In this document: positions 38,840-44,510 of the stretch, piece after piece
How the letters are laid out: the number at the start of each line of letters is the position of its first letter
Numbering within the stretch: position 1 is the first letter of the stretch
NCBI GenBank assembly: GCA_030427925.1
Contig: JAUICJ010000009.1
Location: 1-64,000 of the forward strand
DNA length: 64,000 nucleotides
Reading direction: 5' to 3'
Source of the DNA: Bacteroidia bacterium
Lineage (GTDB): Bacteria > Bacteroidota > Bacteroidia > Flavobacteriales_D > Sanyastnellaceae
The notes under the pieces: model-generated
What the model was told of the DNA's origin: nothing
What the model saw: the letters and a program-made list of their open reading frames with translations, nothing else
Databases searched by the model: none
Position numbers and translations under genes: made by a program

Positions 38840-40894
38840 TCAAAATTCCAGCACCCGCTGCAAGCTGTCGCGCACCCGTTGGGCATTCACAAGAACAAAC
38901 CGCTCCAGCGTTTCGTTCAACGGGATCGCGGGCGTGTCCAGCGAGCCGACCACCTCGACGGGCGCATCGAGCTCCGTGAACAGTTCGTGCGCGATGCGTC
39001 CAGCGAGCGCCCGAGCGAATCCATTCTCCGCCGGTTCTTCCGTAACGATGACCACGCGGTGGGTGGCTTGAACGCGCTCCCGAATCAGATCGAAATCCAC
39101 CGGCACGATGCTCCGCAAGTCCAGCACTTCCACAGGCAATCCCTGCGCCGCCTCCTGCGCCCAATAGACGCCGCGGCCGTAAGCGATGATGGTCAGTTCG
39201 GCGTCAGGGTGTTCGAGCGCCATCCGCCCTTTCCCGAGCGGAACCCGGTATTCGGCATCGGGTTCGACGCACTTCGCCGCTTCCGTGCCGGGAATTTTCG
39301 ACCAGTACAGCCCCTTGTGTTCCAGAACGACCACGGGATTGGGGTCGTAGTAGGCCGCTTTGAGCAGGCCCTTCAGGTCCGCGCCGTTCGATGGGTAGGC
39401 CACCTTGATCCCGCGGATGTTGGCCAAAACCGATTCGATGCTCGAGCTGTGGTACGGCCCGCCGCTTCCATACGCCCCGATGGGCACCCGGATCAGGCTG
39501 TGCACCGGCCACTGCCCATTCGACAGGAAGTAGCTGCGGCTCAATTCCGTGAACAGTTGGTTGAGGCCGGGCCACAGGTAATCGGCGAACTGGACCTCCA
39601 CGATGGGGCGAAGCCCCGCCGCGGACATCCCCGCCGTGCTCCCGATGATGAACGCTTCTTGGATGGGGGTGTTGAAGACGCGGGATGCACCGAATTTTTG
39701 GGCCAACGTCGCGGCCTCGCGGAACACGCCGCCCAACCGACCGCCCACGTCCTGTCCATAAAGCAGCGCTTCCGGGTGGTCGGCCAAAATCTCCTGCATG
39801 GCGTGCAGCGCGCAATCCACCATCAACGTGACTTCACCGCCCGCCGGCGTCCGCTCGCCCACCTCCAACGTCACTTCAGTGGGAGCAAATCGATGCGCCA
39901 GCAAGTCCTCTCCGCGTGGCTCCTCGGCTTCTTTCGCGGCGGCGTAATCGGCCTCGACGGTCGCTCGCGCCTCGCGGAGCACGGCATCCAATTCATCCTG
40001 CTCGACCCCGCTCTCAGCGAGCTCGGCCAACAGCCGCGGCAGCGGGTCGCGCTTCCCGTGCTCCTCGAGGTCGTCGCGGTACCATTCCCGGCGCACCCCG
40101 CTCGTGTGGTGCCCCAGCAGTGGCACGTGCGCGTGCACGAGCACCGGACGCCGCTCCTCCCGCACGATGCGGAACGCCTCTTCCATCGCCGCTTCGCTCG
40201 CCGCGCTGTCCGCCCCGTCCACTTCGATGAGCGCAATGGGCGGGAAGGCCGCTGCCAACGTGGAGGCGCTGCCGAACCGGATCTCCGAAGCGTGGGCCGA
40301 GATGTCCCACTCGTTGTCTTGAACGAGCCAAATGATTGGCAATTCCTTCAGCGCGCTCATGTGCAGCGCCTCGCTCACTTCCCCCTCCGTGATGGCCGCA
40401 TCGCCGATGGAACACACCACCACGGGCGGAGCGCCGTCGCCCACCACTTCGTGCGCCAGACCGTGCTGCTCCCGGTACTGCACGCCCATGGCCACGCCCG
40501 CAGCGGGGATGGCCTGCATGCCCGTTGCGCTGCTTTGGTGCGGAATGCGCGGGAAGCCGGGGCGGTTGAGCGACGGGTGGCTGTAGTACGTCCGGCCTCC
40601 GCTGAACGGGTCGTCCTTCTTCGCGAAGAGCTGGAGCATGAGCTCGTAGGGGCGCATCCCCATCGAGAGCAGGATGCTGTCGTCGCGGTAGTACGCGCTG
40701 AGGAAATCCTGCTCCTTGAGGCGCCGGCCGGTGGCGATTTGGATGGCTTCGTGCCCGCGGGAGCACGCGTGCACGTACTTCGACGTGATGCGCGCCTCTT
40801 CCTCGTACAAGTCGGACATGGAGCGGGCGGTGGCCATCCATCGCAGGGTTTCGAGGGAGATTTCGGTGGCGGGTGCTGGGGCGGATTTTGGCAT
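38840..40894 (-). CDS. 2-oxoacid dehydrogenase E1, fused alpha and beta subunits
   Basis: 684 residues from the ATG at 40894 (MPKSAPAPATEISLETLRW). The alpha half (about 1-340) has SRGHEAIQIATG and the thiamine diphosphate motif GDAAITEGEVSEA...VQDNEW. The beta half (about 350-684) has FNTPIQEAFIIG, GPYHSSSIESVLANI and the C-terminal transketolase domain ending RVLEF. Single-chain E1 proteins of this kind in Bacteroidota are usually assigned to branched-chain 2-oxoacid dehydrogenase; the substrate cannot be decided from sequence alone. No E2 or E3 gene is near. Confidence 0.9.
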   Translation of the reverse strand: MPKSAPAPATEISLETLRWMATARSMSDLYEEEARITSKYVHACSRGHEAIQIATGRRLKEQDFLSAYYRDDSILLSMGMRPYELMLQLFAKKDDPFSGGRTYYSHPSLNRPGFPRIPHQSSATGMQAIPAAGVAMGVQYREQHGLAHEVVGDGAPPVVVCSIGDAAITEGEVSEALHMSALKELPIIWLVQDNEWDISAHASEIRFGSASTLAAAFPPIALIEVDGADSAASEAAMEEAFRIVREERRPVLVHAHVPLLGHHTSGVRREWYRDDLEEHGKRDPLPRLLAELAESGVEQDELDAVLREARATVEADYAAAKEAEEPRGEDLLAHRFAPTEVTLEVGERTPAGGEVTLMVDCALHAMQEILADHPEALLYGQDVGGRLGGVFREAATLAQKFGASRVFNTPIQEAFIIGSTAGMSAAGLRPIVEVQFADYLWPGLNQLFTELSRSYFLSNGQWPVHSLIRVPIGAYGSGGPYHSSSIESVLANIRGIKVAYPSNGADLKGLLKAAYYDPNPVVVLEHKGLYWSKIPGTEAAKCVEPDAEYRVPLGKGRMALEHPDAELTIIAYGRGVYWAQEAAQGLPVEVLDLRSIVPVDFDLIRERVQATHRVVIVTEEPAENGFARALAGRIAHELFTELDAPVEVVGSLDTPAIPLNETLERFVLVNAQRVRDSLQRVLEF

Positions 40895-40902
40895 AGCAAG
40901 GC

Positions 40903-40910
40903 CAAAGATA
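40903..40910 (-). promoter_or_regulatory. Perfect -7 box of the E1 gene
   Basis: TATCTTTG on the minus strand, an exact TAnnTTTG, 8 nt before the E1 ATG. It stands back to back with the dapF box 16 nt away, so the two promoters must overlap upstream. Confidence 0.7.
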
Positions 40911-40926
40911 CGGACCGCCGGATGGC

Positions 40927-40934
40927 TACCTTGC
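40927..40934 (+). promoter_or_regulatory. -7 box of dapF-lnb, 4 nt before the ATG
   Basis: TACCTTGC is followed by ACCC and the ATG at 40939. This is one of the boxes with the fixed 4-nt spacing. Confidence 0.5.
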
Positions 40935-40938
40935 ACCC

Positions 40939-42990
40939 ATGCAAATTGCCTTTTGGAAATGGGAAGGCGCGGGGAACGATTTCATCCTGGTGGACGGTCG
41001 GACGATGCCGCGCGAATTGCATCCCGATGAGGTGACGCGGTTGTGCGACCGGCACCACGGGATCGGAGCGGATGGACTGATTGTGTTGCGGCCGTTGGGG
41101 GCGGAGGCTCCGGGGCCCTGGCCGCGGTGGGAGATGGACTATTGCAATGCGGACGGGACGCGGTCGTTTTGCGGGAACGGGAGCCGGGCGAGCTTTGCGT
41201 TTCTGGTGCGTCAAGGTTGGGCGCCCCGGGAGGCCGTGTTGGAAGCGTGCGACGGGGCGCATCGGGCGCGGTGGGATGCGTCGCGGGATTTGCCGGGGGT
41301 GGAATTGCGGCCGATTGCGACGGCGCGGCACCTCGGCGCGGCGCCGGAGGGGGTGGAGTTGCCGCCTGCCGATCATTGGTTCGCGGACTCGGGGTCGCCG
41401 CATCACGTGGCGTTCCTGACGGACGGGAGGGAGGTGCTGGAGGGGCTGGACGTGGACGGACTGGGTGGGGCGGTGCGGCGGCATGCCGTGCACGCGCCGG
41501 CGGGCGCGAACGCGAACTTCGTGGCGGATTCGGCGTCGGACGTGACGGAGTTGTGGGCGCGGACGTTTGAACGCGGGGTGGAGGCCGAAACGCGGGCGTG
41601 CGGAACGGGGGCCACGGCAATTGCGGTGGCGGATTACATGCGGCGGGGCGGACCGACGTTTCGGCGGGTTCACATGCCGGGCGGGACGTTGGAGGTCACG
41701 TTTGACCACGATCCGGAGGGGTTTGATGGGATTTGGCTCCACGGCCCCGCGCGCGAGGCGTTTACGGGCGTGGTGGAATGGCCGGACAAGCCCGAGCGCC
41801 CTTCGCCCAACACGGATGTGTTCGCGTGGCTCGGGGTGTGGGTGCTGTTGCTGAGCAGCTGGACTGCCGCGTTTGCGGGGGGCGATTTATCGGATGAGGC
41901 CCGGATTTCGCTGCTGACGGGCTCGCCGGGTTCGGAACTGTGGTCGGCGTGGGGGCACACGGCCGTGCGCGTGTACGATCCGGGGGTGGAGCCGCCGTTG
42001 GACGAGATTTACAATTATGGCACGTTCGCCTTCGGCCCCGGTTTCTATGCCAAATTCCTTGCCGGCGAACTCGATTACCGCCTCTCGCGCGAGCCTTTCG
42101 GGTCGTTCCAGATCAGCTATTTGCGGTCGGGGCGCGGGTTGTTGGAACAGCCCTTGGATTTGGCCCCTTCGGATGTGCGGCAACTCGCGGCGTACCTCGA
42201 ATGGAATCACTTGCCTGAGAACCGAACCTACCGCTACCGCTTCCTGCACGACAATTGCGCGACGCGGGTGCTGACGGTGATGGGGGCGGTGTTCGGCGAC
42301 CGCTGGGATGCCGGGTGTTCGTCAGGAGGCACAGCGCCAGCAGGGGGCTCGACGTATCGGGAGGCGTTGCGGCCTTACCTCTCGGGGTGGCCGTGGGCGC
42401 AAGCGGGCGTGGAATGGGCGATGGGGCCGGGGGGCGACTCCGGTCCTCCTTGTTTTGCGAGTTTCCTTCCCGATGGTTTGTCAGGCCAAATCCAATCCGC
42501 GACCCTCGACGGTCGCCCCATTGCCTCGAAGCCGATGGAACTCGTTCCGCGTCAGGGGCCCTGGTTCTCCCGTGGCCCTCGGGTTCCGTTCGGCCCAAGC
42601 GGTGCAGCGGCCGCACTGGTCGTGCTCGCCTTATCGGCCTTCCGCATTCCGGCACGGGGCTGGAAATTCGTCAGCCGGTTGCCGCTCTTGCTCGCTGGAA
42701 CGGTGGGCGTCGTGCTCACCGCGGCGTGGTTGTTCACCGATCACCGCGATTTGTGGGCCAATGTGAATTTGTTGTGGTCCAGTCCGTTGCTTTTGGCGGT
42801 CTACATACCGCGCGTTCACCGCGGTCGGACGGGGGCGTGGATGCGGGCGGGATTGTTTGTATTTTTGGTAGCCTTCCTCGGAATGCAAGCAGTGCGAGGG
42901 GTCAGCATTCCGCTTTGGATGCACCTCATGCTGTTGGCGGTGGGCCTTGCGCTCGAGCCGTGGCGCATTCGGAAGGACCTGCACGCATGA
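40939..42990 (+). CDS. dapF: Fusion of diaminopimelate epimerase (DapF) and Lnb/DUF4105 lipoprotein N-acyltransferase
   Basis: 683 residues in one uninterrupted frame. Residues 1-280 are DapF, which converts LL- to meso-diaminopimelate: catalytic Cys78 in SFCGNGSR and Cys221 in ETRACGTGA. Residues 295-313 (FAWLGVWVLLLSSWTAAFA) look like a signal peptide or anchor. Then a periplasmic DUF4105 domain has WSAWGHTAVRV (His340), IYNYGTFAFG and HDNCATRV (Cys440), and five helices end the protein. That is the layout of Lnb, the Bacteroides lipoprotein N-acyltransferase. The fusion is topologically possible: DapF inside, Lnb outside. A GTG at 41818 (codon 294) is a possible internal start for a separate Lnb. 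A lost stop through sequencing error is the other explanation. Confidence 0.9.
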   Translation: MQIAFWKWEGAGNDFILVDGRTMPRELHPDEVTRLCDRHHGIGADGLIVLRPLGAEAPGPWPRWEMDYCNADGTRSFCGNGSRASFAFLVRQGWAPREAVLEACDGAHRARWDASRDLPGVELRPIATARHLGAAPEGVELPPADHWFADSGSPHHVAFLTDGREVLEGLDVDGLGGAVRRHAVHAPAGANANFVADSASDVTELWARTFERGVEAETRACGTGATAIAVADYMRRGGPTFRRVHMPGGTLEVTFDHDPEGFDGIWLHGPAREAFTGVVEWPDKPERPSPNTDVFAWLGVWVLLLSSWTAAFAGGDLSDEARISLLTGSPGSELWSAWGHTAVRVYDPGVEPPLDEIYNYGTFAFGPGFYAKFLAGELDYRLSREPFGSFQISYLRSGRGLLEQPLDLAPSDVRQLAAYLEWNHLPENRTYRYRFLHDNCATRVLTVMGAVFGDRWDAGCSSGGTAPAGGSTYREALRPYLSGWPWAQAGVEWAMGPGGDSGPPCFASFLPDGLSGQIQSATLDGRPIASKPMELVPRQGPWFSRGPRVPFGPSGAAAALVVLALSAFRIPARGWKFVSRLPLLLAGTVGVVLTAAWLFTDHRDLWANVNLLWSSPLLLAVYIPRVHRGRTGAWMRAGLFVFLVAFLGMQAVRGVSIPLWMHLMLLAVGLALEPWRIRKDLHA

Positions 42991-44510
42991 ACGACCACTT
43001 CGGTACTTGGATGACGCGTTGGATGCTCGGTGGACTCGTTCTGCTCGGGTTGTCGGGATGCCGCTTGGAGCCCACGCGCTGGAATGCGGACATCGCGCTT
43101 CCTTTGGTGGATGCCACGTGGGGTTGGAGTGAATTCTTGGGCGACACGTTGGGAGAAGTGACCTCGGGATCGCCCGGGGTGTTGCGCTTTCAGGGCAAGG
43201 TGGCCGAGGTGCCGTTGGCCGAGTTGACGCTGCTTCCGGATACGTTGGTGGAAAACGTGTTGTCGCCTGCGTTTGCGGGCGGTCCGTTTGAGGTGCCGCC
43301 GGGGGCGGTCTTGCTCGATGAGCAACAGGACATCGTGTTCCAAGGCATTGAGCAGGAATTCTCGCGCATGACCTTGGAGGAGGGGAAAATCGCCTACCGG
43401 GTTCGCAGCAAGACGAATGGCTACGTGCAGTTGCGGTATGATTTCCCGAGCGTGACCATCGGCGGGGTCCCGGTGGTGCTGGACGTGGTGCTGCCGCCAT
43501 CGACGGATGGGGGAAGCCAAATCGAAGAAGGCGAAATCGATTTGGCCTCCGCAACCATCGACTTCACGGGGGCAAGCGGCACGGAAGTGAACCGCATCAA
43601 CTCGAACCTGCGCATCGGAACCCCCGCGGACATTCCGTACACGGCCCTCGTTTACGGTACCGATAGCATCGACGTTCAGATGCTGTTCACCGGCCTGACG
43701 GTGGCCGACGTGGAAGGCTATTTCGGCCAAATCGACATCGACTTGAACGAATCCGCCGACCTGTTCGACGCGGGTCGGTTTCCATCGGGGGCGGTTGCGG
43801 CGATGCCCACCCAAGCGAACCTGACCGTGCACAACAGGATGGGGGCGGATTTGGCGTTCTGGATCGAGTCCTTGGAACTGGCGGGCGAGGCCATCGACCA
43901 CCCTGCAATGGGCATGGAGCAGGTCTTGGCACGCGCTGATTGGTCAACCGACCCGCCCGCAGCAGATGCCTGGGAGCTGGATTTGCTGGCGTGCACGCCC
44001 AACCTGTTCGAGGCGCTGGGGGCATTGCCGGCCGATGTGGCCGTGAACGGGACGCTGCAGCTGAATCCGCTGGGCGACGTGACCGCGGGGCACGATTATT
44101 TGCGGGCTTCCGACCCGCCTTATGTGTCGCTGGATTTGGAACTGCCTTTGAGCGTTGGGGTGAGCGGGTTGGTGATCCGGGAAGAGGTGACCGTGGAGGC
44201 GCGTTCCATGCCGGGATTTGTCGGCGAGCTCGTGGTGCGGTTGACCCACGATTTTCCCGTTGAATGGACCGTGAATGGCCGCTTCGATGCGCTTGCGTTC
44301 GGTCCCGGACCGGAGTTTTCTGCGACCATGCCCGTGGGGAGCGAGTCCATTGAGCTGCGCTTGCCGGTGGATGCCGAGCGGTTGGCAAAGGGGGGCACGT
44401 TGCCCATTGAATTGCACTTGGACACCGATGGAGCGGTGCCGTTTTCGGGCTTCGAAACGGTGCGGATGCAGCTCGCTTTGGAAGGCCAAATCCAAGCCGT
44501 CATCGAATGA
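42987..44510 (+). CDS. Hypothetical outer-membrane-type lipoprotein
   Basis: 507 residues from the ATG at 42987, which overlaps the dapF-lnb stop (ATGA). A lipobox LSGC places the lipidated cysteine at residue 25. The rest is beta-rich with repeated strand patterns (TLEEGKIAYRV, VQLRYDFPSVTIGG) like other large exported lipoproteins of Flavobacteriales. I do not recognise a named domain. As the next gene after Lnb, it would itself be an Lnb substrate. Confidence 0.82.
   Translation: MNDHFGTWMTRWMLGGLVLLGLSGCRLEPTRWNADIALPLVDATWGWSEFLGDTLGEVTSGSPGVLRFQGKVAEVPLAELTLLPDTLVENVLSPAFAGGPFEVPPGAVLLDEQQDIVFQGIEQEFSRMTLEEGKIAYRVRSKTNGYVQLRYDFPSVTIGGVPVVLDVVLPPSTDGGSQIEEGEIDLASATIDFTGASGTEVNRINSNLRIGTPADIPYTALVYGTDSIDVQMLFTGLTVADVEGYFGQIDIDLNESADLFDAGRFPSGAVAAMPTQANLTVHNRMGADLAFWIESLELAGEAIDHPAMGMEQVLARADWSTDPPAADAWELDLLACTPNLFEALGALPADVAVNGTLQLNPLGDVTAGHDYLRASDPPYVSLDLELPLSVGVSGLVIREEVTVEARSMPGFVGELVVRLTHDFPVEWTVNGRFDALAFGPGPEFSATMPVGSESIELRLPVDAERLAKGGTLPIELHLDTDGAVPFSGFETVRMQLALEGQIQAVIE

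Follow-up and report, generated by a model that had tools for sequence, protein, structure and literature searches.

An obligate dapF-lnb fusion in one Flavobacteriales family probably encodes a polyprotein split at an internal signal peptide

DapF is a cytoplasmic enzyme of peptidoglycan-precursor synthesis, and Lnb, the lipoprotein N-acyltransferase of Bacteroides, works on the periplasmic side of the membrane. In the window, i.e., the whole stretch of 64,000 nucleotides analyzed here, which comes from a draft assembly of 51 contigs, the two are encoded by one open reading frame, raising the question of how a single translation product could supply enzymes for both compartments. Judging from the sequences of this locus and its relatives, we put the probability at roughly two in three that this obligate fusion encodes a polyprotein that signal peptidase I cuts in two at a signal peptide lying within the chain. 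The features of the gene and its two halves are as follows.

40939 to 42990, + strand: fusion gene dapF-lnb, 683 codons and a stop; the frame is likewise open over its full length in four genera.
40939 to 41778, + strand: DapF domain, residues 1-280, above the TIGR00652 cut-off, with DapF structures as the best Foldseek matches (E ~3e-20).
41170 to 41172, + strand: DapF catalytic Cys78 in a CGNG motif, invariant in fused and unfused proteins and aligned with the CGNG of PDB 9mro.
41599 to 41601, + strand: DapF catalytic Cys221 in a CGTG motif, likewise invariant in fused and unfused proteins and aligned with the CGTG of PDB 9mro.
41893 to 42291, + strand: Lnb_N periplasmic domain, residues 319-451, above the PF13387 gathering score.
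41956 to 41958, + strand: Lnb catalytic His340, invariant.
42256 to 42258, + strand: Lnb catalytic Cys440, invariant.
42619 to 42939, + strand: Lnb C-terminal transmembrane domain, residues 561-667, above the PF25221 gathering score.

Both the DapF half and the Lnb/DUF4105 half are complete, and their catalytic centers are intact. The reading frame is open from the ATG to the TGA with no stop within, and the fusion protein scores above the Pfam cut-offs for DAP_epimerase (81 bits vs 34.7), Lnb_N (74.7 vs 22.2), and 5TMH_Lnb (33.5 vs 25.2), as well as above the NCBIfam equivalog cut-off for TIGR00652 DapF (150 bits vs 114.65). Across 33 fusions, Lnb_N was matched in every one and 5TMH_Lnb in 28 (E<=0.001). 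Cys78, Cys221, His340, and Cys440 are invariant in these 33 fusions and in 31 unfused relatives, and the His340 and Cys440 pair, which is a trait of permuted NlpC/P60 enzymes (PMC12994826), is constant across the 54 sequences compared. Thus, what the preliminary description had reported from the letters alone, namely one 683-codon frame without a stop between the halves and the four catalytic residues at these positions, holds in the domain searches and in the relatives. The AlphaFold model has a mean pLDDT of 85 and consists of two confident halves, with values below 50 only at about residues 283-314. Two further cysteines of the Lnb half, C460 and C505 (42316-42318 and 42451-42453), are invariant in all of the fusions and in the sister genus g10, and the remaining 26 unfused relatives in the comparison lack them; the two possibly form a periplasmic disulfide that is older than the fusion.

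Residues 1-280 match ordinary DapF proteins (TIGR00652/PF01678) over the full length, including both catalytic cysteines and the DapF fold, but whereas an ordinary DapF stops after the epimerase domain, the fusion continues into a signal peptide. Similarly, the remainder shares with the Lnb/DUF4105 proteins of Bacteroides (PF13387 and PF25221) a signal peptide, an NlpC/P60-like His/Cys domain, and a C-terminal transmembrane domain, the difference being that its N-terminus is joined to DapF. The fusion is the sole DapF gene and the sole Lnb_N gene (one match) in its own genome, which fits DapF epimerase activity on LL-DAP. Lnt was not found above cut-off in this genome or in the 13 family genomes searched, and its absence from the latter fits Lnb filling that role. 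The idea that a second DapF or an Lnt makes the fusion dispensable was rejected, as neither was found in the genome. On the Lnb equivalog model NF051878 the fusion scores 143 bits, below the cut-off of 550 bits, so its exact N-acyltransferase function is assigned by homology only; unfused members of the family, at 206-284 bits, likewise fall below this cut-off.

Could the joint be an artifact, i.e., two genes run together by a sequencing or assembly error such as a missed stop or a frameshift? Apart from the draft state of the assembly, nothing was found in favor of this explanation. A search for the DapF-DUF4105 architecture in related genomes, as suggested in the preliminary description, found it in four genera (g1, g3, g5, and g14) of one Flavobacteriales family, about 45 genomes in all, each with the fusion open, and these relatives refute an error. 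Named records of this kind are Flavobacteriales MAGs, e.g., UBA1531, UBA1959, and UBA7443. None of the 43 readable junctions contains a stop. Separate dapF and lnb genes in some genomes of the fusion genera were considered and rejected, as every seemingly split case (G032, G115, G122, G124, and G131) lies at a contig end; a missed stop or frameshift is therefore ruled out, and we leave an error next to no chance. Whole-genome searches of 114 genomes of the same family placed the full-length fusion in these four genera only, and among the matches listed for samples of the order (399 genomes) and the phylum (395 genomes), in which full-length fusions rank first, none came from outside them. Four of the 11 genomes of g3 (G022, G128, G129, and G130; completeness 70-94%), a notable share, have no DapF or Lnb_N match although MurE is present, and these absences may be assembly gaps.

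The fused sequences are a single clade whether the tree is built from DapF (support 0.93), from Lnb (0.99), or from both concatenated (1.0), a pattern indicating that the fusion arose once. The clade is sister to genus g10, in which dapF and lnb are separate genes and the GTG start of lnb overlaps the stop of dapF as GTGA, by 4 nt, in four of five loci (the fifth overlap is 11 nt); a 4-nt ATGA overlap of the two genes occurs in many other unfused genera. A small indel at such a stop/start overlap would create the fusion. Within the linker and signal peptide, nine pair alignments contain no gap or one gap column, and dN/dS ranges from 0.11 to 0.63 in the eight computable pairs, which are rough values for a short region. 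The dN/dS of the joint exceeds that of the flanking domains in most pairs, yet stays below 1, and the sequence comparisons point to purifying selection across the joint.

The joint comprises the following features.

41779 to 41820, + strand: linker and n-region, residues 281-294, from the end of DapF to the hydrophobic core, with low pLDDT and basic residues preceding the core.
41821 to 41877, + strand: core and c-region of the internal signal peptide, residues 295-313 (FAWLGVWVLLLSSWTAAFA), a hydrophobic core with an A-F-A site, like the N-terminus of unfused Lnb.
41875 to 41880, + strand: A313|G314, the predicted cut by signal peptidase I; 36 of 37 scored junctions have Ala at -1, and A|Q is enriched in the clade.

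The last conserved residues of DapF (W266, L267, and G269) are followed by a few residues, the hydrophobic core, the c-region, and then the Lnb domain, a layout matching the signal peptide with which unfused Lnb begins. The signal-peptide-like helix noted earlier at residues 295-313 is thus borne out, and residues 281-313 as a whole read as an n-, h-, and c-region with a small-x-Ala site, A-F-A|G, that is conserved across the clade. The near-universal Ala at the predicted -1 position among the scored junctions is biased upward, since the scoring of sites favors Ala, so the count of Ala-Gln pairs (AQ) is the less biased test. Of 37 junctions, 20 (54%; 26 of 43 when six read separately are added) have AQ at most 18 residues past the core, compared with two of 123 control membrane helices of the same proteins (2%; Fisher 2e-13, a test that overstates independence because the junction sequences share ancestry), 13% of shuffled junctions, and 15 of 42 signal peptides of unfused Lnb (36%). 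In Bacteroidetes, Gln averages 71% at +1 of signal peptidase I substrates, a tendency known as the "Q-rule" (PMC5837995), and a crude scan of the window placed Gln after the cut in six of nine signal-peptide proteins. About half of the fusions carry Gln at +1, including the nearest relative, locus L002, which reads VQA|Q; the junction of the window, AFA|GG, is a good site that lacks it. A few members of g5 have a less typical residue (F) at -3. Signal peptidase I is encoded in the genome.

The preliminary description took the old Lnb signal peptide to have become an internal anchor that tethers the two enzymes. Its first part stands, as the signal peptide of Lnb is now internal, but a permanent anchor is not supported, as the c-region and the cleavage site are kept. 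The corresponding explanation, a stable bifunctional trans-membrane enzyme with DapF and Lnb in one chain held by an uncleaved anchor, draws on the continuous frame conserved in four genera, on a hydrophobic core that could act as an anchor, and on the lack of Gln at the site in the window. Set against these are the Ala at -1 and the A|Q pairs, which all four genera keep, as often as unfused signal peptides or more often, and far more often than uncleaved helices. None of the four genera has lost the c-region or the cleavage site, which makes a cut chain more probable than a tethered one, and we regard a stable tethered enzyme as unlikely. There is no invariant residue between G269 and S324, so nothing points to a structured tether. 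Weak selection might allow a cleavage site to persist, and we see a fairly small chance that cleavage is slow, regulated, or absent, with uncleaved DapF-Lnb spanning the inner membrane in the cell. If so, a peptidoglycan-precursor enzyme would be placed at the membrane, and wall-precursor supply would be linked to lipoprotein maturation.

It was also suggested that Lnb could still be made separately, from the following codon.

41818 to 41820, + strand: GTG codon of V294, the proposed separate lnb start; the codon is ATC in the nearest relative, L002, and so not conserved.

According to this alternative, Lnb is translated on its own from an in-frame start near the joint, as happens where the two genes overlap in relatives. 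The unfused relatives do show 4-nt stop/start overlaps, the GTG does exist, and some members of g14 have an ATG near the core. However, the GTG is replaced by ATC in L002, which is 76% identical, and in the stretch before the core ATG is missing from 23 of 37 junctions, both ATG and GTG from 14, and all of ATG, GTG, and TTG from seven. A separate start is therefore not general in the clade; the internal start at 41818 was rejected, and we consider independent initiation of Lnb very improbable.

For the favored polyprotein, a course of events can be proposed. The ribosome would make DapF first, which would fold in the cytoplasm, and the internal signal peptide would then emerge, to be inserted N-in/C-out through the Sec pathway. 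Export of the Lnb domain and integration of its C-terminal helices would follow, and signal peptidase I would cut after A313. One product would be a mature Lnb of about 370 amino acids in the inner membrane; in relatives it would often start with Gln, so that mature Lnb is expected to carry pyroglutamate there. The other, on the cytoplasmic side, would be a DapF of about 313 amino acids whose C-terminus carries a hydrophobic tail; this may stay on as a tail anchor, or a membrane protease may remove it. Joining the genes would fix a 1:1 ratio of synthesis and end the dependence on reinitiation at the overlap, and the fusion can be explained without any direct functional link between the DapF and Lnb reactions.

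Polyproteins that are split at an internal signal peptide are already known; no report of a DapF-DUF4105/Lnb fusion was found in the literature searched. In Bradyrhizobium japonicum, a single gene encodes the cytochrome b-c1 polyprotein FbcH, which is believed to be cut into two proteins at an internal signal peptide. The products of FbcH are membrane subunits of one complex, whereas in the present fusion one product is a cytoplasmic enzyme that is normally soluble and belongs to another pathway. In hepatitis C virus (PMC5402940), the cytoplasmic core ends with the signal peptide of the next protein, E1, and stays anchored in the membrane once signal peptidase has cut; this is a eukaryotic virus using the ER signal peptidase, and core-E1 has no homology with DapF-Lnb. 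A conserved polyprotein of the kind proposed here would have an internal signal peptide between a soluble wall-precursor enzyme and an exported membrane enzyme, an unusual and directly testable start of export after a long folded cytoplasmic domain. DapF-Lnb is a natural test of how signal peptidase handles an internal signal, and the locus illustrates an evolutionary path from overlapping stop and start codons to an in-frame fusion.

The surroundings of the fusion are shared as well: in g1 and g3 alike it is flanked by a divergent gene resembling an E1 dehydrogenase and, on its other side, by a lipoprotein-like gene. In the window, the former (38840-40936, - strand) resembles a fused alpha/beta E1 component of 2-oxoacid dehydrogenase; its longest open reading frame starts 3 nt before the ATG of the fusion, and this neighbor also adjoins the g3 fusion at locus L012. 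The gene after the fusion (42987-44510, + strand) has an ATG that overlaps the stop of the fusion and encodes a lipoprotein-like product (LSGC). As a similar lipoprotein gene also lies 3' of the L012 fusion, it may be both an operon partner and a substrate of Lnb.
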